A DNA stretch of 64,000 nt, taken from NCBI GenBank assembly GCA_021823525.1, contig JAKANY010000001.1, forward strand, positions 62,001-126,000. Direction: 5' to 3'. Both the position numbers and the translations under genes were made by a program. Each line of letters begins with the position of its first letter. Position 1 is the stretch's first letter. This stretch comes from Actinomycetes bacterium. GTDB taxonomy: Bacteria > Actinomycetota > Acidimicrobiia > Acidimicrobiales > RAAP-2. Of the stretch, positions 25,592 to 41,879 are shown piece by piece. The notes under the pieces were generated by a model that did no database searches, had not been told where the DNA came from, and was given only the letters and a program-made list of their open reading frames with translations.

Positions 25592-25705
25592 TCATCGGCG
25601 GGAGCGAGCAGTGCTGCCGCCGTACAACGCGGTCGTCAGGTGGGTGGCAGAGTGCGAGTGACGAGACCGGCGCCTCCATGGATAGTGCAACAAGGAGGAG
25701 AGGTC

Positions 25706-26608
25706 TTGAAGATACACACGTCACGACTCGTCATCGCCGCGGCCGCGCTCGGTCTCGCGTCGCTGACGTTCGTCGGTGTTGGCGGATATGCCGCGTTCAC
25801 CTCGCAGGTGACCGCCAGCGCGCAGGTGACCTCGGGGGAGTTCAACCTCGTGGTGCAGACGGGGACGACGGCCCTTGGCTGCACGGCGGGAGGTCTCCAG
25901 CAGAATGCTCAGCAGTTCGGCAACCCGGGGTGCTTCGAAGGCTCCGCCGTCAACGGCGTGTGGCAGTGGGGCGACGGGTACAACGCTCCCGTGGAGCAAC
26001 TCAACGGGCAGGACAACGGGTTCAGCCTGACGGTGCCCAACATGTCGCCGGGCGTCGCCTACTCGGCGAACTTCAGCGTCGAGGACTTCGGCACGCTGCA
26101 GGGCCTGGTCACCCAGGTGACCTACACCCCACCGACCTTCACGTCGTCGAACGACGGGCTCGCGCAGGGATCCGAAATCTACCTCTACCAGCCGGCCGGC
26201 TCCTACGAGGTGTATCCCAACGGTGGACCCGTGTACGGAACCCAGGACTGCACGGCTGTCGGGGACAGTTCCACGCCCAGCACCACGCTGGGCTCCCAGT
26301 GCTACCAGGGCGCCACGACGACGAAGACCGACCAGTGGACGCACCCGTACCAGAACACCACGTACTGGGAGCTCATCGGCTCGTTCAACGCCACGCAGGC
26401 CGGCGTCGCCAAGGTTCGCGAGGGATTCGTCCAGCCGTGGTACCCCGATGGGCCCAACGGCGGGCAGAAGGCGCCCGGTGACGAGGGCGGCGTGACGCTC
26501 AAGGCGGTTGTCGCGGTCCATGACGCGCTCGCCAATGGCGGCTCCAACGTCAATGAGGAGACGACCTTCGCACCATCATTCGCGGTGCAGGGGACGTCCC
26601 TGCCGTAG
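25706..26608 (+). CDS. TasA/CalY-like secreted protein with SipW-type signal peptide (TTG start)
   Basis: AAGGAGG RBS then TTG; KIHTSRLVIAAAALGLASLTFVGVGGYAAFTSQVTASAQVTSGEFNLVVQ; adjacent to SipW-like peptidase. Confidence 0.75.
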   Translation: MKIHTSRLVIAAAALGLASLTFVGVGGYAAFTSQVTASAQVTSGEFNLVVQTGTTALGCTAGGLQQNAQQFGNPGCFEGSAVNGVWQWGDGYNAPVEQLNGQDNGFSLTVPNMSPGVAYSANFSVEDFGTLQGLVTQVTYTPPTFTSSNDGLAQGSEIYLYQPAGSYEVYPNGGPVYGTQDCTAVGDSSTPSTTLGSQCYQGATTTKTDQWTHPYQNTTYWELIGSFNATQAGVAKVREGFVQPWYPDGPNGGQKAPGDEGGVTLKAVVAVHDALANGGSNVNEETTFAPSFAVQGTSLP

Positions 26609-26618
26609 TCGTCCGCGA

Positions 26619-26668
26619 TCGCCACTCGCCCGGGGATTCGCGGCAGCAGATCCCCGGGCGAGTGGCGA
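26619..26668. repeat. 18-bp perfect inverted repeat between the TasA-like and signal peptidase genes
   Basis: TCGCCACTCGCCCGGGGA (26619-26636), 14-nt loop, TCCCCGGGCGAGTGGCGA (26651-26668). Confidence 0.9.
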
Positions 26669-26684
26669 GCACCCGAGAAGGACC

Positions 26685-29400
<2,716 letters not shown>

Positions 29401-29664: not shown

Positions 29665-29738
29665 CGGGTCGACGTCCCGCAGCGTCGGGACGGGGTCGTG
29701 CCGTGCCTTACGGGCGGCGTACCGAGCAGGGAGGCGAC

Positions 29739-32700
29739 ATGGGTCTCGGGATCAATGGGCAGTCGAGGCGGACGCGGCACTGGGGCCGGCCGGTCCTTCG
29801 CGCACTGGTCGCCGTCGTGGCGGGTCTCGTCTCGATTGTCGGGCTCGCCCTGCCCGCGGGCGCCACGTCTGTCGCCTCGGTGAGCTTCTGGACGTCGCAG
29901 TATCCCCAGGCGGTCGGCACCGGCTTCAGCGCCTCCAACGACGCGTACGGGAATACGCCGCAGTTCTGGCAGGTGGAGTTCACGACATCAGCGACGGGCG
30001 CACTCAGCGCTTATAACAGCGTCACGGTCACGTATCCCACGGGCTTCGCCGTCCCGGCAACGGGAATTGGCTTCACCCTCTCGGGCGGATTCGCCGGCTG
30101 CTCATCGTTCACCGGCACCGCGTCCGCCACTGGAACGACCATCACTGTCACGCTCCCGTCGGGCTGCACGCTCGCCGCCAGCACCCAAGGGGTGATCCAG
30201 TTCACGACCGGGAGCCTCATCACGAGCCCGCCGGTGACCGACTCGGCGTACACGGCGTCCAACTTCACGGTCGCCACGTCCGCCGACACGACCCCCGTCG
30301 TCGCGTCGTCACTGTCGTCGCTGACTTACTCGGGCTCGAACGTCAACTCGGTCTCGGCTCCCGGGACGTACCTCGCCCACGAGACCCAGCCCTGGACCGT
30401 CGACTTCACGACCTCCACCTCGGCCGCGCTGACGGGCGCCGGCCCCTACGGCGGCGCCCTGGTGGCAGGAGACACCGTCTCGGTCGCCTTCCCCGCCGGA
30501 TTCACGCTGCCGACCGGCCCGACCGCGATCACGCTCAACACGGGTTTCACCTCGTGCAGCGCGAGCGGCACGTCGGCGTCCACCACCGAGACGATCACGC
30601 TGAGCGGCTCGGGCTGCTCGCTGCTCGCGAGCGCTGCGGCGTCCCTCACGATCCCCGGGGTGACGAACCCGATCGTGGGCTCCTACACGATCGGGGTGAC
30701 GACCTCGGAGGATCCCACCACGGTCGCCGGGACGACGACCACGCTCGTCACCGTCTCGCCAGCGGGCACCGCGGTCACCGGCGTCGCCTTCAGCGCCTCC
30801 TCGTACAAGGGCAACGCCACCACCACCTGGACCGCCGACTTCACTCCGACGTCCCCGGGGCTGCTGACAGCGGGCGACACGGTCACCGTCACGATGGCGT
30901 CGCCCTTCACCCTCGCGTCGCCGACGGTGGTCACGTTCGCCCAAGGCTTCACTGGCGGAACGAGCTGCGCCCCCCAGTCGGTGACCCCGGCGGGCACCTC
31001 TCTCACCGTGACGCTCGCGACGGGCTGCTCGCTCTCGGGCGGGGTGCCGGCTGCGCTGTCCTTTGCCGCGACGAACCCGCCCGCGACTGCGACCTACGCT
31101 GGCGCGAACTTCAGCGTCGTGACCTCGGAGGACCCGACGGCGACCTCCCCCACGTCGGTCGACGCCATCGTCGCCTCGGGCAGCGCGGTGACTGGCGTCA
31201 CGTTCGCGGGCGCCACGAACAAGGCCAACGTCACGGAGACCTGGACTGTCGGCTTCACGCCCTCGAGCGCGGGGCGCCTGGTCGCTGGTGACACGGTGAC
31301 GGCCTCGTTCCCGAGCGGCTTCGTGATCAGCGCGTCGCCGACGGTCACCTTCGCCTCCGGGTTCGTCGGCTGCACCAACGTGACCGGTGTGCTCACCGGG
31401 TCGACCGAGGTCACCGCGACGCTCCCGTCGGGCTGCTCGCTCGCCGACTCGCAAGCGGCGACGATTACCTTCTCGGTCACCAATCCTGGGCCCGGAACCT
31501 ACCCGGCGAGCGGATTCACGGTGGCGACCTCGGAGGATCCGGCGGCGGTTGCCGCCTCGTCGTCGGTGACGATCCTGACGTCGGTGACCCAAGTCCAGAA
31601 CGTCACCTTCTCCGCCTCGACGTATCACGGCAACACGCCCGCCACGTGGACGGTCGACTTCACGTCGTCGAGCAGTGGGTCCCTGGCCAGTGGCCAGAGT
31701 GTCACGGTCGTCTTCCCGGTTGGCTTTGGCGTGCAAGCGAGCCCGACCGTGTCCCTGGTATCGGGGTTTACCGGCGCCAGCTGTTCGGGGTACACCACGG
31801 CCAGCGCCTCGGGGACCACGGTGACCCTGACCCTGCCCAACACCTGCACGCTGGCGGCGAGCACGCCGGCGAGCGTCTCGATCGACGTGACGAACCCGCC
31901 AGTCACCGACCCGAACTACGCAGCTTCGAACTTCAGCGTCTCCACCTCGTCGGACGCCGTGCCCGCCAGCCCCTCGTCGGTGCAGGCTCTCTCGGTCTCC
32001 GGTACCGCAGTGTCCAATGTCACTTTCGCCGGTGCGACCAACAAGGGCAACGTGACCGAGACCTGGACGGTCGGGTTCAAGACGTCGGGCGGGGGAGCGC
32101 TGGTCGCCGGTGACACGGTGACGGTGGCCTTCCCGTCGTCCTTTGCGATCAGCCCGAGTCCGGTGGTCGCCCTCACGTCGGGATTCGTGGACTGCGCGGG
32201 ACTGCCCGCCCTCAGCGGCTCGACGCTCACCGTGACCCTGGTCAACAGCGGCGGGACCTGCGCGCTCGCCGACTCGACAGCGGCGACGTTGACGATCACC
32301 TCGGTCACGAACCCGCCCGCTGGCACGTACGCCGCGAGCGGCTTCAGCGTCAACACCTCCGAGGACCCGACGCCGGTGCACCCGAGCAGCGATGTCGTCA
32401 TCGGCCCGTCGGGGACGGCGGTGTCGGCGGTCTCCTTCTCGGCCGTCTCGTACGCCGCCAACACCTCGACGACCTGGACCGTCGGCTTCACGCCCTCGGT
32501 GCCGGGCACGCTGGTCGCCGGCGACTCGGTGACGGCGACGTTCCCGACCACGGGGGGATCGAGCGACTTCGGCATCCCGAACAACCCCGCTGTGACCTTC
32601 GCGTCGACCTTTGCGGGCGGGCCCGCCTGCTCGCCGGCGTCGGGGACGTACACCAGCGGGACGGGAGTCCTCAAGGTCGTGCTGCCGAGCGGCTGCTCGC

Positions 32701-35700
32701 TCGCGGGCGGCTACGCGGCGACCATCACCTTGAGCGCGAAGAACCCGTCAGCGACGACCACCTACAGCGCCAGTCAGTTCTCGGTCTCCACCTCCGAGGA
32801 CCCGACGCCCGTCAGCCCCACCGGCGTGGCCGCGATCGGATCGTCGGGCTCGGCCGTGTCAAGTGTCGAGTTCAAGGTGGGCAACCCGCCCCAGTCGGGC
32901 ACCTATTTCAGCTCGCCTGGCTCGTACGCGACGACCAACGCCGCCTACGGCAACCTCCCGACATCCTGGGCGGTTGCCTTCCAGGCCTCGGGGGGGGGCA
33001 GCCTCGTGCCGGGTGACACGGTCACCGTGACCTTCCCGCTCGGCTTCAGGATGTCCAACCCCTCTGTGACCTTCGCCGGCAACATGTCGGCGTGCGGCAC
33101 GGTCACGGGTTCCGCATCGTCGAACGTGCTGCGCGTGACGATCCCGAACCTGAACACCTGCGGGCTGTCGGGTGGCTCCACGGGAGCCCTGAGCTTCACC
33201 GTGACCGATCCACCCGTGACCACGACCTATTCCGGGAGCGAGTTCTCGGTCTTCACCTCCGAGGACCCGACACCCGTCAGCCCGACCTCGGGGAACTACG
33301 TGGCGAGCCTCACGCACTCGGGCTCGACGCCAACGGCCGGCACCGTGTCGGTCTCGCCAGCGACCGGTGACGTGAGCGCGACGCTCACCATGAGCTTCAC
33401 CCCGTCCTCGGCCACGTCACTGTCCGGTTCCGCGCCCTACAGCGGCGCCCTGACGCCGGGGGACACGATCACCGCGTTCATCCCGGCCGGCTTCGTCGTC
33501 ACGACGCCCACGGCAGCCGTGACCCTCTCGGGCTGCGCAGCACTCACCACGGGCGCCGTCACGGGCAGTGTGGGCTCGGGCTGGCACGTTACGCTGACCG
33601 TGCCGAGCGGCTGCTCGCTGGCCGCGGGCAACCCGGCGACGCTCACCGTCGCGGTGACAACGCCGCCCGCCGGCTCCTACAGCGGCTTCCAGGTGTCCAC
33701 CTCCGAGGACCCGACGCCGGCGACCTCCGCGTCGTCGGTCAGTCTGAGCGCGGCCGGCTCCGCGGTCTCGGGCGTGACCTTCGCGGCCCAGACCTTCGCC
33801 GGCAATCAGACGACCACCTGGACGGTCGGCTTCACTCCCTCCCTCCCGGGCGGCCTGGCGGCCGGTGACACCGTCACGGTCGAGATGCCGAGTGCCTTCT
33901 TCCCGGCGACTCCGACGGGCAAGGTCACCTTCGCCTCCGGCTTTGCCGGCGGCGCGGCGTGCATCCCGACGCTGCCGACCTACGCGAGCGGAGCGGGCGA
34001 GGAGACGATCACCCTGACCCTGCCCGCGGGCTGCTCGCTCGCCGGTGGCCAGCGGGCGACCCTCACCCTGTCGCTGACCAACCCGCCAGAGACCTTCCTG
34101 TACGCACCGTCGCAGTTCGGGGTCAAGACCTCGGCCGACGACGTGGCGCTGGTGATCCCGGGCACCGTGCACGCCCTGGTCCCGTCGGGCTCGGCGGTTC
34201 TGGGCGGTGGGAGCGCCCCAACCTTGGGTGCAGCCTCGACCAAGGCCAACACCTCAACCACGTGGACGGCAACGTTCACGCCGTCGCTCCCGGGCACACC
34301 GGTCGGCTCCTTTGGGGGGGCGCTGGTGGCCGGCGACACCGTGTCGGTGTCTTTCCCGGCAGGCTTCGTCGCGACGGCGACCCCAACCGTCTCGATGGCG
34401 TGCGGCAGCCCCGGGAGCTCGGCGACGGGCTCGGTCGCGACGGGCTGGACCGTGACCGTGACGGTGCCCAGTGGGTGCTCCTACGTCGCGGGAAACGCGG
34501 TCACGCTGCAGGTGGGCATCACCAACCCGCCCGTCACCGACGCCTACACGACGAGCCAGTTCGCCGTGTGGACCTCGGAGGACCCGATGCCCGTCCCGCC
34601 CGTCACCGTGTCGACGATCACGCCCTCGGGAACGGTGGTCACCGGCGTCACCTTCGCGGGTGCGACCAACAAGGCCAACCTGACCGAGACCTGGACGGTC
34701 GGCTTCACGCCCTCGGGTGCGGGAGAGCTGGTGGCCGGTGACACGATCACCGTGACGTTCCCGTCGAGTTTCGGGCTCGTCGCGACCCCGGTCATCGGCC
34801 TCAACGCCAACTTCGGCGGGTCGTGCACCGCGACCGGCTCGACGGTGGGCAGCGCCGTGACGGTGGTCCTCCACGGGACCTGTGACCTCCCGAGCTCGAC
34901 GGTCACGACCCTGACCGTGTCCTCGGTGACGAACCCGCCCGCGGGCACCTACCCGCTGAGTGACTTCTCCGTCGCGACGTCGGAGGACCCGAGTGCTGCT
35001 CATCCCGCATCGGACATCGTCATCGCCCCGACGGGGGGCCAGGTGAGCGCGGTGACCTTCACGGCGGGCACCTACGCGGGCAACACGTCGACGACCTGGA
35101 CCGCGGGATTCACGGCGACCCCCGGAGGGGACCTGTTCCCGGGTGACACGGTCACCGTGACGTTCCCGACAGCGGGGGGCACGAGCGTTTTCTTGATCTC
35201 GCCGACGCCCACGGTCAACTTCACCGCGGGATTCACCGCCGGGTTCCTCGGCTGCAACCCCACGGTGGGAGCCTTCACCGCGGCGACCGGGACCCTGGTC
35301 GTCACGCTGCCGGCCAAGTGCACCTTGGCCGCGGGCGTGTCTGCTGCCATCTCGGTGACTGCGGTGAACCCGCCGGTGACGACCACCTACACGGCGAGTC
35401 AGTTCACCGTGGCGACCAACGAGGACTTCACGCCCAACAGCCCGGCCGTCGTGCACGCCATCGTGCCCTCGGGCACCGTGGTCAATGGGGTGACCTTCAG
35501 TGGCTCAACGCTCAAGGGCAACCAGGCCGCGACCTGGACCGTGCACTTCAACGCCTCGATCGTCGGCACGCCGCCGCCCTACGGCGGAGCGCTGGTGGTC
35601 GGCGACACCGTATCGGTGTCCTTCCCGGCGGGCTTCGTGATGGCGGCGACACCCGCAGTGACCCTCAGTGGCTGCGCGGCCCTGACGGCGGGCAGCGCGG

Positions 35701-38237
35701 TGGGCTCGGCGCTCACGGGATGGTTCGTGACCCTGACCCTGCCCAGCGGCTGCTCGGTGGCGACCGGGGAGGCCGTGACGGTCACGGTCGACGTGACCAA
35801 CCCGCCGGTGACCGACCTCTACAGTGCGGGCCAGTTCACGGCCTCGACCTCCGAGGACCCGGGCCTCGTCAGCCCGGCCACCGTGTCACCGATCGTGGCC
35901 TCCGGCCACGCGGTCACCCTGACCGGCTTCACCGCCGGCACGTACAAGGGCAACCAAACCACGACCTGGACGGCCACCTTCACCACGTCCAACAGCGGTG
36001 GCTACGTCGGGGGCCTGGTGGCCGGCGACACGGTGACTGCCACGTTCCCCACGACGTTCCTCATGGGCGCGCCCTCGACCGTACGCTTGACGGGCGCGTT
36101 CGCGGGCGGGTCGTGCCTCAACGTGGCGCTGCCCGTGGGCGACGTGACGATCACGGGGACCGTGCTCACGGTCACCCTGCCCGCTAGCTGCACACTGGCC
36201 AACGGAGCCACGGGCGCACTCAACGTGACGATCACCAACCCACCGGTCACCGAGCCCTACGCGGCGAACCAGTTCAGCCTGGCGACCTCGGAGGACCCGG
36301 TGATCGTCTCCGCGAGCAGCGTCTCGCCGCTGGTGGCCTCGGGCAATGCGGTGTCGGGTGTGACCTTCGTCCCGGGAACCTACGGCGGGAACCAGGCGAC
36401 CACGTGGACGGCGAGCTTCACCACGTCCAATAGCGGGACGACCGTCGGGGGCCTGGTGGCCAACGACACCGTGACCGTGACCTTCCCGACGACGTTCATC
36501 ATGGGCGCGGCCTCGACGGTGACCCTCGGCGGGGCCTTCACCGGCACCTGCTCGCTGCCACCGAGTGATGCCACGATTACCGGACACGTGGTCGGGGTGA
36601 CGTTGCCGGCGGGCTGCACGCTCGCCAACGGCGCCACGGGGACCGTCACGGTGGGGATCACCAATCCGCCCGTGACCACCACCTACGCCACCACCGACTT
36701 CGCCGTCAGTACCAGTGAGGACCCGACCACCGTCCACCCGAGCTCGGTCGCGCCGCTGGTTCCCGGTGGCGTCCAGACCTCCAACGTGACCTTCGTGGCC
36801 TACTCCAACGTCTCGAGCACTGCCACCTTGTGGACACTGGGCTTCACGACCGACGCGACGGGGCAGCTGGTGGCGGGCGACACGATCACGGCGACCTTCG
36901 CCTCGGGATTCACCATGGCGAATCCCAGCACGGTGACGTTCTCGACGGGCTTCGTGGGCTGCACCACGGCGAGTGCGTCGTTCTCGTCGAGCACGCTGTT
37001 CTTCACGCTGCCTTCGGGGTGCTCGCTCGCAGCCTCGACCAATGCCACCTTCACCTTGACCGTCACGACGCCGATCCTGCCGGGGGTCTACCCGGGCTCG
37101 TCCTTCAGCATCTTCACCTCCGAAGACCCGGCGCCCGCGCACCCGACCTCGGTCGCGGTGGTCGGGGCGATCTCACCCACCACGGGTGGCGGCTCAGGAC
37201 CGGGCACCGGATCGGGCACGAGCTCGGGCGGCAGCACCGGTGGCACTACGACGTCGACACCAGCACCGCCTCCTGCGGGCATCGCGCCCAGTGCGCTGGG
37301 CACGCCCGAGTCGGCCATCGTGGGCACGACGGCACTGTCGGTGGTGCTGGTCTCGGGATCGTCGATCTTCGAGGTGACCGCCCCGCAGAGCACCCTGCCC
37401 GCGGGCACGACCATCAGCCTGTACCCGATCACGACGACGACCTCGCTCTCCTCGCAACTGCCCACGGGCGCCTCGTTCCTGGTGTCCCTGGCGGTGTCCT
37501 GGCAGACCGCCGGTGGCGCCACGCCGCCGTCGGCTACGCCGCTCACCCTCACGGTGAGCGACCCGTCGATCGTGCCCGGTGACGTGATCTACATGGTCAC
37601 GCCCACGGGGCTGCAAGCTGTCGGCGTGGCCACCACGAGCGACACGGTCACGATCACCTTCAGCACCGACCCGGTTTTCGTCGTGGCTTCGGCGGTCGCC
37701 CCGCAAGCACAGGCCGCTCTCAGCCTGAGCGGCGCGAGCGTGACTATCGGTCACGCCCTCACCCTGTCGGCCTCGGGCGGATCCGGGTCTGGGGCGCTCA
37801 CCTACGCCATCGTTGGCGGGACGGCCAACGGCTGCTCGCTCAACGGTGCGACGCTGACGAGCGCCGGGCTGGGGACGTGCGTTGTGCAGGTGACCAAGGC
37901 GGGAGACCTCACGTACGAGTCGGCGACCACGACCGCGACGTTCACCTTCGCGCGCGCGCTGCCGGCGCGTCCGGCGATGGTGCAGGTGGTCTTCGCCTCG
38001 GGTGGCTGGTCGCTGAGCGCGACCGCGCGCACGCAGCTCGCCGGGCTCGCGCACCGACTGGTTCGCGGCGCGCTGATCCGCATCGTCAGCTACGGCTCGG
38101 GCAGTGCCGCGCTGGCGCATCGGCGGTTCGCGACCATCGAGCGCTACCTGCTCGGACTCGTGCGGGTGCGGGTTCAGGCGGTGTTCGCGACCAAGGCGCG
38201 GGCCGCCGTGGGCCGCATCCTGACCCTGGCGCAGTGA
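29739..38237 (+). CDS. Giant (~2,830 aa) secreted multi-repeat protein with C-terminal Ig-like and OmpA-like regions
   Basis: RBS GGGAGG, signal peptide (RHWGRPVLRALVAVVAGLVSIVGLALPAGATS); 17 repeats each ending in a (F)(S/T)V.TSEDPTP-type motif; C-terminal VQVVFASGGWSLSATARTQLAGLAHRL... Confidence 0.93.
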   Translation: MGLGINGQSRRTRHWGRPVLRALVAVVAGLVSIVGLALPAGATSVASVSFWTSQYPQAVGTGFSASNDAYGNTPQFWQVEFTTSATGALSAYNSVTVTYPTGFAVPATGIGFTLSGGFAGCSSFTGTASATGTTITVTLPSGCTLAASTQGVIQFTTGSLITSPPVTDSAYTASNFTVATSADTTPVVASSLSSLTYSGSNVNSVSAPGTYLAHETQPWTVDFTTSTSAALTGAGPYGGALVAGDTVSVAFPAGFTLPTGPTAITLNTGFTSCSASGTSASTTETITLSGSGCSLLASAAASLTIPGVTNPIVGSYTIGVTTSEDPTTVAGTTTTLVTVSPAGTAVTGVAFSASSYKGNATTTWTADFTPTSPGLLTAGDTVTVTMASPFTLASPTVVTFAQGFTGGTSCAPQSVTPAGTSLTVTLATGCSLSGGVPAALSFAATNPPATATYAGANFSVVTSEDPTATSPTSVDAIVASGSAVTGVTFAGATNKANVTETWTVGFTPSSAGRLVAGDTVTASFPSGFVISASPTVTFASGFVGCTNVTGVLTGSTEVTATLPSGCSLADSQAATITFSVTNPGPGTYPASGFTVATSEDPAAVAASSSVTILTSVTQVQNVTFSASTYHGNTPATWTVDFTSSSSGSLASGQSVTVVFPVGFGVQASPTVSLVSGFTGASCSGYTTASASGTTVTLTLPNTCTLAASTPASVSIDVTNPPVTDPNYAASNFSVSTSSDAVPASPSSVQALSVSGTAVSNVTFAGATNKGNVTETWTVGFKTSGGGALVAGDTVTVAFPSSFAISPSPVVALTSGFVDCAGLPALSGSTLTVTLVNSGGTCALADSTAATLTITSVTNPPAGTYAASGFSVNTSEDPTPVHPSSDVVIGPSGTAVSAVSFSAVSYAANTSTTWTVGFTPSVPGTLVAGDSVTATFPTTGGSSDFGIPNNPAVTFASTFAGGPACSPASGTYTSGTGVLKVVLPSGCSLAGGYAATITLSAKNPSATTTYSASQFSVSTSEDPTPVSPTGVAAIGSSGSAVSSVEFKVGNPPQSGTYFSSPGSYATTNAAYGNLPTSWAVAFQASGGGSLVPGDTVTVTFPLGFRMSNPSVTFAGNMSACGTVTGSASSNVLRVTIPNLNTCGLSGGSTGALSFTVTDPPVTTTYSGSEFSVFTSEDPTPVSPTSGNYVASLTHSGSTPTAGTVSVSPATGDVSATLTMSFTPSSATSLSGSAPYSGALTPGDTITAFIPAGFVVTTPTAAVTLSGCAALTTGAVTGSVGSGWHVTLTVPSGCSLAAGNPATLTVAVTTPPAGSYSGFQVSTSEDPTPATSASSVSLSAAGSAVSGVTFAAQTFAGNQTTTWTVGFTPSLPGGLAAGDTVTVEMPSAFFPATPTGKVTFASGFAGGAACIPTLPTYASGAGEETITLTLPAGCSLAGGQRATLTLSLTNPPETFLYAPSQFGVKTSADDVALVIPGTVHALVPSGSAVLGGGSAPTLGAASTKANTSTTWTATFTPSLPGTPVGSFGGALVAGDTVSVSFPAGFVATATPTVSMACGSPGSSATGSVATGWTVTVTVPSGCSYVAGNAVTLQVGITNPPVTDAYTTSQFAVWTSEDPMPVPPVTVSTITPSGTVVTGVTFAGATNKANLTETWTVGFTPSGAGELVAGDTITVTFPSSFGLVATPVIGLNANFGGSCTATGSTVGSAVTVVLHGTCDLPSSTVTTLTVSSVTNPPAGTYPLSDFSVATSEDPSAAHPASDIVIAPTGGQVSAVTFTAGTYAGNTSTTWTAGFTATPGGDLFPGDTVTVTFPTAGGTSVFLISPTPTVNFTAGFTAGFLGCNPTVGAFTAATGTLVVTLPAKCTLAAGVSAAISVTAVNPPVTTTYTASQFTVATNEDFTPNSPAVVHAIVPSGTVVNGVTFSGSTLKGNQAATWTVHFNASIVGTPPPYGGALVVGDTVSVSFPAGFVMAATPAVTLSGCAALTAGSAVGSALTGWFVTLTLPSGCSVATGEAVTVTVDVTNPPVTDLYSAGQFTASTSEDPGLVSPATVSPIVASGHAVTLTGFTAGTYKGNQTTTWTATFTTSNSGGYVGGLVAGDTVTATFPTTFLMGAPSTVRLTGAFAGGSCLNVALPVGDVTITGTVLTVTLPASCTLANGATGALNVTITNPPVTEPYAANQFSLATSEDPVIVSASSVSPLVASGNAVSGVTFVPGTYGGNQATTWTASFTTSNSGTTVGGLVANDTVTVTFPTTFIMGAASTVTLGGAFTGTCSLPPSDATITGHVVGVTLPAGCTLANGATGTVTVGITNPPVTTTYATTDFAVSTSEDPTTVHPSSVAPLVPGGVQTSNVTFVAYSNVSSTATLWTLGFTTDATGQLVAGDTITATFASGFTMANPSTVTFSTGFVGCTTASASFSSSTLFFTLPSGCSLAASTNATFTLTVTTPILPGVYPGSSFSIFTSEDPAPAHPTSVAVVGAISPTTGGGSGPGTGSGTSSGGSTGGTTTSTPAPPPAGIAPSALGTPESAIVGTTALSVVLVSGSSIFEVTAPQSTLPAGTTISLYPITTTTSLSSQLPTGASFLVSLAVSWQTAGGATPPSATPLTLTVSDPSIVPGDVIYMVTPTGLQAVGVATTSDTVTITFSTDPVFVVASAVAPQAQAALSLSGASVTIGHALTLSASGGSGSGALTYAIVGGTANGCSLNGATLTSAGLGTCVVQVTKAGDLTYESATTTATFTFARALPARPAMVQVVFASGGWSLSATARTQLAGLAHRLVRGALIRIVSYGSGSAALAHRRFATIERYLLGLVRVRVQAVFATKARAAVGRILTLAQ
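29880..37170 (+). repeat. 17 tandem ~140-aa (~430 bp) protein repeats
   Basis: Counted TSEDP-like motifs (NFTVATSADTTP ... SSFSIFTSEDPAP); each unit usually has TWTV.FT, AGDTVTV.FP..F, G(F)..C and a second GC(S/T)LA cysteine. Confidence 0.88.
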
Positions 38238-39054: not shown

Positions 39055-40123
39055 GGATCACGCTCACGCCGGCGGACAGGCCGGCGGCACAGTCTCTCGC
39101 CAGTGATCCGGTGTACTCGACGTCGTAGACGGCCTTGTGCGCTCGCACGAAGGGGGCCAGCTCGGGGCACTGGTGGTACGCGACGCACTGCTCATCGATG
39201 GCGAAGTCGAAGACGGGCTCGAGTTCGGCGACCTGACCCAGGTCGTTCTTCAGACCCACGGCCAGGTGGTCACGGTGCGCGAGAGCAGCCAGGCCGCGGT
39301 TGTAGCGCAGCTGGTCGGCTGGCGTGAGCGGGAAGCCCGTCACGTTCGCGTACCCGTCGACGTTGTCGAAGTCGACGGCATCGAAGCCGGCGGAGGCGCA
39401 GCGGGCGACCCGGCGAGCCATGATTGGCATCAACGTCCCTACCGCGCGAATGTCGAGCCATCGCTCCCCGGGCCAGCCGTTGGGTCGTCCGCGAAGCCTT
39501 GCGGGAAAGAGTCGGGCGTCAGGTCGCCAGCGCTCCCAGGTCCCGGCGTCGACGTAGCAGATCGCGTAGTCGCCCCGGGCGTGGATCGCGCGCACCGCCG
39601 CGGCGTTGGGCGTGGTTCCGTTGGGACCGTCGAGGTCGATGTCGAAGATCGTGGGGTGATGGCACGGACCGCGTGCTCCCGTCGCGCAGACGTTCAGGTC
39701 GATGCCGCCCGGACCCTGCGGGCCCGTCGAGAGCTGATACTGGAAGAGAGCGCCGATGGGTGGACCGGGCGCAGCGCCGGCGCGCGCGGTGGGGGCGACT
39801 GCCTCGAGCGTGATCAGCACGATCGCCGATGCGAGAAGGACGAGATGGCACCGGCGGGGGTGGTACCGGCCCCGAGGTGTGCCACCGCCGCGGCGTCGCC
39901 TCGTCTCCGTCCGGGGGCCATCACGCTGAGGAGCCCGTTGGCAGCCAGTATCGCGAAACCGTCGCCGGCAACTTCCCGCGTGTATCGGCCAGCGGTGCGA
40001 GCGACTGGTGGGTGGCTCCTCTCGTCTTCGCACGAGGATGGCCCCGCTGCGCGCGTGCTCCATCGTGAGGACGTCCTCGGTTGCGCGCCTCGTCCCTACA
40101 GGCGTCGCCGGCACTGTGGTCAC
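38963..40123 (-). CDS. Secreted GH114 (endo-alpha-1,4-polygalactosaminidase-like) protein
   Basis: GALFQYQLSTGPQ, IFDIDLDGPNG, GDYAICYVDAGTWERWRPDARLFP, AGFDAVDFDNVDGYANVTGFPLTPADQLRYNRGLAALAH, GLKNDLGQVAEL; GTGA overlap with upstream gene; Arg-rich N-terminus then hydrophobic segment. Confidence 0.82.
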   Translation of the reverse strand: MTTVPATPVGTRRATEDVLTMEHARSGAILVRRREEPPTSRSHRWPIHAGSCRRRFRDTGCQRAPQRDGPRTETRRRRGGGTPRGRYHPRRCHLVLLASAIVLITLEAVAPTARAGAAPGPPIGALFQYQLSTGPQGPGGIDLNVCATGARGPCHHPTIFDIDLDGPNGTTPNAAAVRAIHARGDYAICYVDAGTWERWRPDARLFPARLRGRPNGWPGERWLDIRAVGTLMPIMARRVARCASAGFDAVDFDNVDGYANVTGFPLTPADQLRYNRGLAALAHRDHLAVGLKNDLGQVAELEPVFDFAIDEQCVAYHQCPELAPFVRAHKAVYDVEYTGSLARDCAAGLSAGVSVILKSRALGAVPWRPCLLRLPRPRSTAARRAT

Positions 40124-40626
40124 GCCAAGAACGCGCTGAGTCCCGTGGACCGGGATGCCTCCGTGATCTCATCGTCGGCGGCTGCGAGAACTCGCAAGAG
40201 GTCATTTGACGTCACGGTGTCGAACAGCGGGACGTACCACGAGAATCCGACCGCGTCACCGTGCGACTTCCAGGTTGTGCAGTACAGCGACACGCTGTTC
40301 ATCGCGGCAATGGTTGATTCGATGTCCCTCCGCTCGACGCGTAGTTTGGCGATCTTGAAGTACACGCGACACAGGATGGCACGTTCCGCTGTGCTTACCG
40401 TGAGGAGCAGTGTGTATCGCTCCGGATGTGTGCAGCGCAGTTGGGGAGCCTCATCGGGGTCGCTGATGACCTCGGTCTCGAATCCGCCAGTCCCGAGGAC
40501 CCCCTGGATCCACTCGACGGTGACCTGTTCTCCGGCAGTCGTCAGGGGTGGCGGGAACCGCTGGCCACACGAACGACAGAAGATGTCGGCTGGTTCTCGC
40601 GTGGCACCGCATTCCTCACATCTCAT
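40120..40626 (-). CDS. Zinc-ribbon protein with YbjN-like domain
   Basis: MRCEECGATREPADIFCRSCGQRF zinc ribbon; remainder YbjN/chaperone-like alpha-beta pattern (tentative). Confidence 0.65.
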   Translation of the reverse strand: MRCEECGATREPADIFCRSCGQRFPPPLTTAGEQVTVEWIQGVLGTGGFETEVISDPDEAPQLRCTHPERYTLLLTVSTAERAILCRVYFKIAKLRVERRDIESTIAAMNSVSLYCTTWKSHGDAVGFSWYVPLFDTVTSNDLLRVLAAADDEITEASRSTGLSAFLA

Positions 40627-41030: not shown

Positions 41031-41879
41031 TCAGTTCCATTTGTCCGTCTGTCGTGCGACTTCGCGCATGGAGAGAGCCACGGGAGTCAACAGCTCGAGA
41101 ACTCTCTGCTGCTCGGACACGGGAACCTCCACCTCATAGCGCCAACCCAGGGGTGTTCCGAGGTGCCGCGCAATGGCGCTCAAGAGGCCGGACCCTGCGG
41201 GCGTCGCATGAAGAGGAATGAGGAGGACGGTCTTTCGCGGCCGAACGCGGAGCGCCGCGATCGCCAAGATGAAGACGATGACTCCAACCACCGTGCTGTG
41301 TGTCGCGCTGCTGATCGCACCGGCGACCGCGAGGGCGACAAGAATGAACCAGTACATTCCGAGTGCTGCGAGGCAGCCGATTGCCTGTTGAGAGGCTGAC
41401 GTATTACGCGACCTGCGAATCTTGAATATGTGCTGCTTGATCTCGACGGCCCCGAGAAACGGGATCTGCGAGATTTCCGCGATCTGACCCACATTCGCTC
41501 GCGCATCGGAGAGGACCGCACTGTCGGTCTCCATCTGCATGAGCACCTCGTCACTGTCGTTCACAACCACGACGCGGCGATCGGTCACGATGAGCTCCTT
41601 GGCCGCCATCGGCGTGAACTTGCGCACTGTACGGCCCGACGAACCGGTAACGCGCTCGCTCTCCTCCCAGATGCGGGTGGCTGGGACGCGCAGCTGCTCC
41701 ATCTCCTTCGAGTCGCGCGTTTCGGAGCCCGAAGGGCGACGCGCCGTCACACGGGGCTCACCACTGTGGATGCTGCGTTCTGCTCCTCCCACTCGCAACT
41801 GCGCTCCGCAGCGCGCGCAGAACTCGCCCCCGTCAGGAGCGGGTGCGCCGCACTGTGTGCAAAAAGAAGCCTCGGACAT
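41031..41879 (-). CDS. Zinc-ribbon membrane protein
   Basis: FCTQCGAPAPDGGEFCARCGAQL ribbon; AAKELIVTDRRVVVVND PH-like segment; two TM stretches. Confidence 0.65.
   Translation of the reverse strand: MSEASFCTQCGAPAPDGGEFCARCGAQLRVGGAERSIHSGEPRVTARRPSGSETRDSKEMEQLRVPATRIWEESERVTGSSGRTVRKFTPMAAKELIVTDRRVVVVNDSDEVLMQMETDSAVLSDARANVGQIAEISQIPFLGAVEIKQHIFKIRRSRNTSASQQAIGCLAALGMYWFILVALAVAGAISSATHSTVVGVIVFILAIAALRVRPRKTVLLIPLHATPAGSGLLSAIARHLGTPLGWRYEVEVPVSEQQRVLELLTPVALSMREVARQTDKWN

Follow-up and report, generated by a model that had tools for sequence, protein, structure and literature searches.

Domain organization of a giant secreted protein

What kind of protein is encoded by an 8.5-kb gene made up largely of one repeated unit, and how could such a long secreted chain be held at a cell surface? 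The question is raised by a locus in the 64,000-nucleotide stretch of DNA analyzed here (the window), which comes from an actinobacterial genome of 1.83 Mb that is 95% complete. The gene is one open frame of 2,832 codons on the forward strand (29739-38237), with its ATG at 29739 and its stop codon at 38235-38237. It encodes a protein that we named P0001, with the following features.

29730-29734 (+): Shine-Dalgarno sequence GGAGG, 4 nt upstream of the ATG, read directly
29739-38237 (+): secreted giant protein P0001, 2,832 aa, an open frame with an ortholog of similar length in the same genomic place (locus L033)
29739-29867 (+): signal peptide, aa 1-43 (...GLALPAGA), with a basic N terminus, a hydrophobic core and small residues at the expected cut
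29868-37163 (+): 17 Ig-like repeats with two Cys each, from alignment, HMM and an AF2 model of repeats 3-4
Repeats 1-6: aa 44-195, 196-337, 338-477, 478-612, 613-751, 752-888
Repeats 7-12: aa 889-1033, 1034-1188, 1189-1336, 1337-1479, 1480-1627, 1628-1762
Repeats 13-17: aa 1763-1908, 1909-2052, 2053-2198, 2199-2340, 2341-2475
35025-35462 (+): repeat 13, the best-conserved unit and a candidate functional unit, 87% identical to the ortholog (adjoining repeats 51-63%, other repeats 46-78%)
37164-37298 (+): Gly/Ser/Thr/Pro-rich linker, aa 2476-2520, from the sequence
37299-37673 (+): extra domain, aa 2521-2645, probably beta-rich from by-eye sequence comparison, 74% identical to the ortholog
37674-37970 (+): Ig-like domain with two Cys (2699 and 2714), aa 2646-2744, from AF2, PDB neighbors and recurrence
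37971-38234 (+): compact cationic OmpA-like C-terminal module, aa 2745-2832, with a net charge of +11, a pI of ~12, the TD loop deleted and the Arg kept

The signal peptide (aa ∼1-43) was called from sequence features, without a dedicated predictor. By eye, stretches similar to the extra domain also precede the Ig/OmpA module in three other proteins of the genus (L073, L079, and L080). The P0001 sequence has neither an LPXTG motif nor a transmembrane C-terminal tail, and Pfam searches detect in it no SLH, CWB2, or LysM match and no enzymatic or known ligand-binding domain. Matches to META and AAA (E 0.03-0.08) lie far under the cut-off and were taken as chance. No upstream control element common to related genes was seen, and a promoter/terminator scan scored no better than shuffles.

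The repeats are divergent bacterial Ig-like domains

The 17 repeats are 135-155 aa long and each closes with a TSEDP-type motif (aa 180 to 2460). Within P0001 they share 34-68% identity (mean 43%). Because a profile built from repeats 1-8 alone recovers repeats 9-17 at E values of 2e-24 to 4e-43, whereas the best of 180 shuffled controls reaches 0.34, the repetition is not due to chance. P0001 contains 36 Cys, of which 34 are distributed exactly two to a repeat and the remaining two sit in the Ig-like domain. The ortholog likewise has two Cys in all 17 of its repeats; in other relatives the number is nearly always two or 0, close ones nearly always having two per domain and more distant members of the same order mostly lacking Cys. 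Given this pair and a VKOR-type oxidase encoded in the source genome (E 4.7e-26), one disulfide in each repeat is likely. The array has a pI of about 4 and a low-charge composition rich in Thr, Ser, Ala, and Gly. Stabilization of the repeats by isopeptide bonds was rejected, Lys making up only about 0.6% of the residues, at positions that are not conserved.

Searching solved structures with the sequence of the repeat returned nothing significant. We therefore relied on an AF2 model of repeats 3-4, with an input of 32 two-repeat rows from the P0001 gene and its ortholog, which is almost entirely beta (pLDDT 94.2, pTM 0.83). Its top PDB neighbors in Foldseek include the collagen adhesin CNA (E 1.4e-6), SdrE, SdrC, FnBPA, and ClfA, and the neighbors at E<=1e-3 also include integrin alpha chains and transglutaminase-type beta-sandwiches. 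Whole-query TM-scores of the two-domain model against such neighbors are low (0.25-0.34), which therefore supports the Ig-like class rather than membership of the MSCRAMM family. In Pfam, Big_8 (PF17961) is absent from P0001 itself; it scores 30.2 bits in the ortholog and 26.9 bits in a paralog from a relative (G033), against a cut-off of 22.9, these scores being sums over weak repeats with no single stretch passing the cut-off. The repeat is a divergent member of the bacterial Ig-like domains to which a Cys pair has been added. P0001 resembles the N-domains of Big_8/MSCRAMM proteins (CNA, SdrE, ClfA, and FnBPA) in its Ig-like sandwich, MSCRAMMs being among its top structural neighbors, and differs from them in its 17 tandem copies and conserved Cys pair.

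These results bear on an initial annotation, made from the DNA sequence alone, which had described an 8.5-kb open frame with a signal peptide and 17 repeats. Its coordinates prove exact, and so does its report that LPXTG and a C-terminal transmembrane segment are missing. Its statement that the repeats "mostly" carry two Cys recognized a real pair and understated it. Its view that the TSEDP unit fits no family that can be named is nearly right: P0001 matches nothing, but in the ortholog and one paralog Big_8, summed over repeats, exceeds the cut-off. It had also proposed structure predictions, which gave a confident beta-sandwich for the repeat; the outcome for the C terminus is described below.

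The array is old and lies in a variable surface-protein island

The closest relative carrying the gene is Actinomycetes bacterium isolate JA1.bin36 (G026, contig JAJZBX010000004.1). Gene order is the same in both genomes (MFS transporter, groEL, giant protein, TetR, MMPL, NUDIX, guaB, guaA), and the ortholog (L033) has 2,824 aa, 17 repeats, and 62% identity to P0001 across aligned residues. In BLAST comparisons, the positional counterpart is the best match for 14 of the 17 repeats (1-13 and 17), the exceptions being repeats 14, 15, and 16, of which 15 and 16 are nearest each other. Divergence from the ortholog is 31, 24, and 49% at the three codon positions. Because most repeats match one by one and divergence follows codon position in this way, the array is old and selected as protein. 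The repeat is patchily distributed, occurring in 10 of the 61 genomes of the relatives set (source genome included) and in 8 of 296 genomes of the class. An S-layer role for P0001, which the initial annotation had entertained, is made less likely by the lack of SLH, CWB2, and similar domains and by the patchy occurrence of the gene.

Conservation along the protein also bears on whether the array has a target. It could be mainly a passive spacer or a protective coat without a ligand, of which the N-terminal repeat only, or nothing, touches a target. The low-charge composition and the absence of any enzymatic or known ligand-binding domain in the Pfam searches would fit this, and no result points to ligand binding by the repeats. 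However, repeats 7 and 13 are 78-87% identical to their counterparts in the ortholog, against 46-71% for the remaining repeats, which suggests specific work by some units, and we regard a mainly passive array as rather unlikely.

The slot between groEL and MMPL also holds a 1,612-aa Fn3-type secreted protein in G026; in G033 it holds a 5-repeat protein together with a stand-alone protein consisting of a signal peptide, an Ig-like, and an OmpA-like part. Because different secreted proteins occupy it in relatives, this slot is a variable surface-protein island. Very large extracellular proteins, a small genome, and a cluster of surface-protein genes are also found in Apilactobacillus with its Giant1-5 proteins (PMC12863079). 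However, giants 1-4 begin with a beta-solenoid domain (PMC12863079), whereas P0001 strings Ig-like beads together and ends in a part derived from OmpA.

Two further features of the surroundings were recorded. Between the MFS gene and groEL, the source genome carries two overlapping genes (25640-27386, +). The first encodes a secreted protein resembling TasA/camelysin (NCBIfam TasA, E 7e-4), and the second a signal peptidase I of the SipW/archaeal type (TIGR02228, E 2e-16). A functional link between this pair and the giant protein was considered but is not supported: the pair is missing from the orthologous locus, where MFS and groEL are adjacent, and the TasA-like protein is rare among relatives. 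Downstream, in a patch of lower GC (63%), lie genes for two proteins with N-terminal zinc-ribbon-type CxxC motifs (40120-40626 and 41031-41879, both on the reverse strand; MRCEECGATREPADIFCRSCG; MSEASFCTQCGAPAPDGGEFCARCG).

The C-terminal module descends from OmpA and has lost its Asp-bearing loop

The Ig-like domain that precedes the C terminus was modeled by AF2 as a beta-sandwich with a pLDDT of 82-90 across most of the domain, it has Ig-like PDB neighbors in Foldseek (LigA, Big_2), and it recurs together with the C-terminal module in other proteins. For the OmpA-like part, the AF2 model has the order strand-helix-strand-helix-strand, but the pLDDT is mostly 46-74 with an input of three sequences only. 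This part has no Foldseek match of its own, a model of both domains gave only Ig-like neighbors, and a sequence search of the C terminus against solved structures returned nothing significant.

The relationship to OmpA is seen at the level of the family. Although the P0001 copy alone has no Pfam match to PF00691 (OmpA), 22 of the 34 members of the module family match it at E<=0.01 (best 1.9e-9), and no other Pfam family matches the 34 members at that threshold. In genome scans, some compact copies exceed the OmpA cut-off of 27.2 bits in G014:C62 (32.5), G012:C64 (29.4), and G017:C82 (29.0). Profile-profile alignment by hhalign of 28 compact copies with seven canonical OmpA copies of the same order gave a probability of 95 and an E value of 3.8e-8 over 68 columns. 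Judged by its sequence, the C-terminal module is of OmpA origin.

It is a much altered descendant. None of the 28 compact copies has the TD loop, a deletion of about six to eight residues that bear the diaminopimelate (DAP)-binding Asp; the DAP-binding Arg (R286 type) that follows is kept in 27 of them, including that of P0001. All 28 are strongly basic (net charge +6 to +15, median +11), in contrast to the seven canonical domains, whose median charge is -10. Compared with PF00691 domains (OmpA C-terminal/Pal/MotB-type), the module shares the sequence profile (at the level of the family), the near-invariant Arg, and, in a model of low confidence, the order of strands and helices, but lacks the TD loop with its Asp and the NRRV-type end, has its charge reversed (+11 versus about -10), and serves an actinobacterial lineage on giant proteins that are exported. 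Some copies in the genus (L093 and L089) retain a TD or SD loop.

Acinetobacter OmpA binds DAP through D271 and R286, and the Asp was shown to be critical (PMC6572160). As the module lacks the Asp loop and is basic, its classical Asp/Arg clamp is unlikely to be intact, and peptidoglycan binding by it cannot be assumed. There is a precedent for retention of a protein by such a domain: RFP carrying the C-terminal domain of Escherichia coli OmpA attaches to particles of Gram-positive wall (PMC11150769). Specific binding of DAP-type peptidoglycan, with other residues substituting for the Asp, would be in keeping with the conserved Arg and with the loops of L093 and L089, but is improbable for a module that has lost the whole Asp-bearing loop in every compact copy and reversed its charge relative to canonical OmpA.

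These comparisons uphold two proposals of the initial annotation, namely an Ig-like domain and a degenerate OmpA-like C terminus. The TD segment that it had found missing is a real deletion common to the compact copies, and its notion of an unusual, OmpA-like attachment to the wall gains strength from the wide use of the module in the genus.

The module ends many unrelated secreted proteins

Of the 61 genomes in the relatives set, 26 contain the module by a six-sequence profile, and nearly all of these belong to the genus. About 39 proteins of the genus end in it, and the tail that follows is <=5 residues in 35 of 39 proteins and <=28 in all 39. The N-terminal partners are unrelated to each other and include GH16, GH26, RCC1, pentapeptide repeats, Fn3, BNR/sortilin-like, and SdrD_B-like/CarboxypepD_reg domains, and CHAP with a possible carbohydrate-binding domain. 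This distribution is that of an anchoring or sorting module. One module on many different secreted proteins is also the pattern of the non-covalent wall-binding modules of Gram-positive bacteria (LysM, WxL, SH3, CWB2, and SLH), a 2018 review of which does not mention OmpA (PMC5817068).

Three proteins with OmpA-like ends were recorded in their own right. A small secreted protein in G033 (L024, 12846-13534) consists of a signal peptide, a two-Cys Ig-like domain, and the compact OmpA-like module, and represents the minimal form. The source genome has a second carrier (L151, 1809-4490, contig C17 of G000) with a weaker compact OmpA-like end, a BNR/sortilin-like propeller, and Fn3. In G298, which belongs to the same genus, a 4,383-aa frame (L152, 1573-14721) encodes a secreted repeat protein that has an OmpA-like end with its TD motif intact.

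Anchoring of P0001 by sortase was rejected. Unlike MSCRAMM adhesins, the protein has no LPXTG tail, and no sortase candidate (PF04203) was found in the 95% complete source genome. Sortase is present in most genus members searched and in all 18 other families sampled; therefore, across the lineage the module would be an addition to sortase rather than a replacement.

The same distribution could reflect a sorting or export signal that some factor in secretion or processing recognizes and that may be cleaved, so that P0001 would be released as a matrix or S-layer-like protein. Its exact C-terminal position on otherwise unrelated secreted proteins, the loss of the Asp needed for DAP binding, and its fast drift (at 39% identity to the ortholog, its 88 aa are less conserved than any other part of P0001) are all compatible with this idea. 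However, the conserved Arg and the OmpA core pattern suggest that a binding fold has been retained, and the stand-alone protein with only a signal peptide, an Ig-like, and an OmpA-like part makes little sense as a pure tag. We therefore give this possibility little weight.

A model for P0001

The gene, its repeats, their homologies, and the C-terminal position and charge of the module are directly supported. We favor, with a probability of roughly 0.62, the reading that P0001 is a long stalk of Ig-like beads, an adhesin or a matrix component, which a cationic anchor derived from OmpA holds in the wall without sortase. The chain would be exported by Sec and its signal peptide cleaved. The 17 Ig-like beads, each probably locked by one disulfide, would then make up an extended acidic rod of weak charge, with a length of roughly 70 nm if each bead measures ∼4 nm. 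At its base, the C-terminal Ig-like domain and the compact OmpA-like module would stay in the cell wall. Because the module retains the core pattern of OmpA and the DAP-contacting Arg but has lost the Asp-bearing loop and become strongly basic, it would probably hold the wall through this Arg together with electrostatic attraction to peptidoglycan or to anionic polymers of the wall. Judging from its architecture, the rod would most likely mediate adhesion, to surfaces or between cells, or serve as a matrix fiber.

More tentatively, and as a plausible extension that we hold with less confidence than the reading of P0001 itself, the Asp-less cationic descendant of OmpA may be a sortase-independent C-terminal anchor used throughout the genus, for exported enzymes, adhesins, and giant Ig-stalks, and held to anionic wall polymers rather than to DAP.

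Taken together, these findings connect a family of giant repeats that had no name with the Ig-like fold of bacterial adhesins, and the module would predict surface-located proteins in an uncultured actinobacterial lineage with small genomes. OmpA is known mainly as a tether between the outer membrane and peptidoglycan. If the module binds walls, a deletion and a reversal of charge would have remodeled OmpA for display in a lineage of the Gram-positive type.
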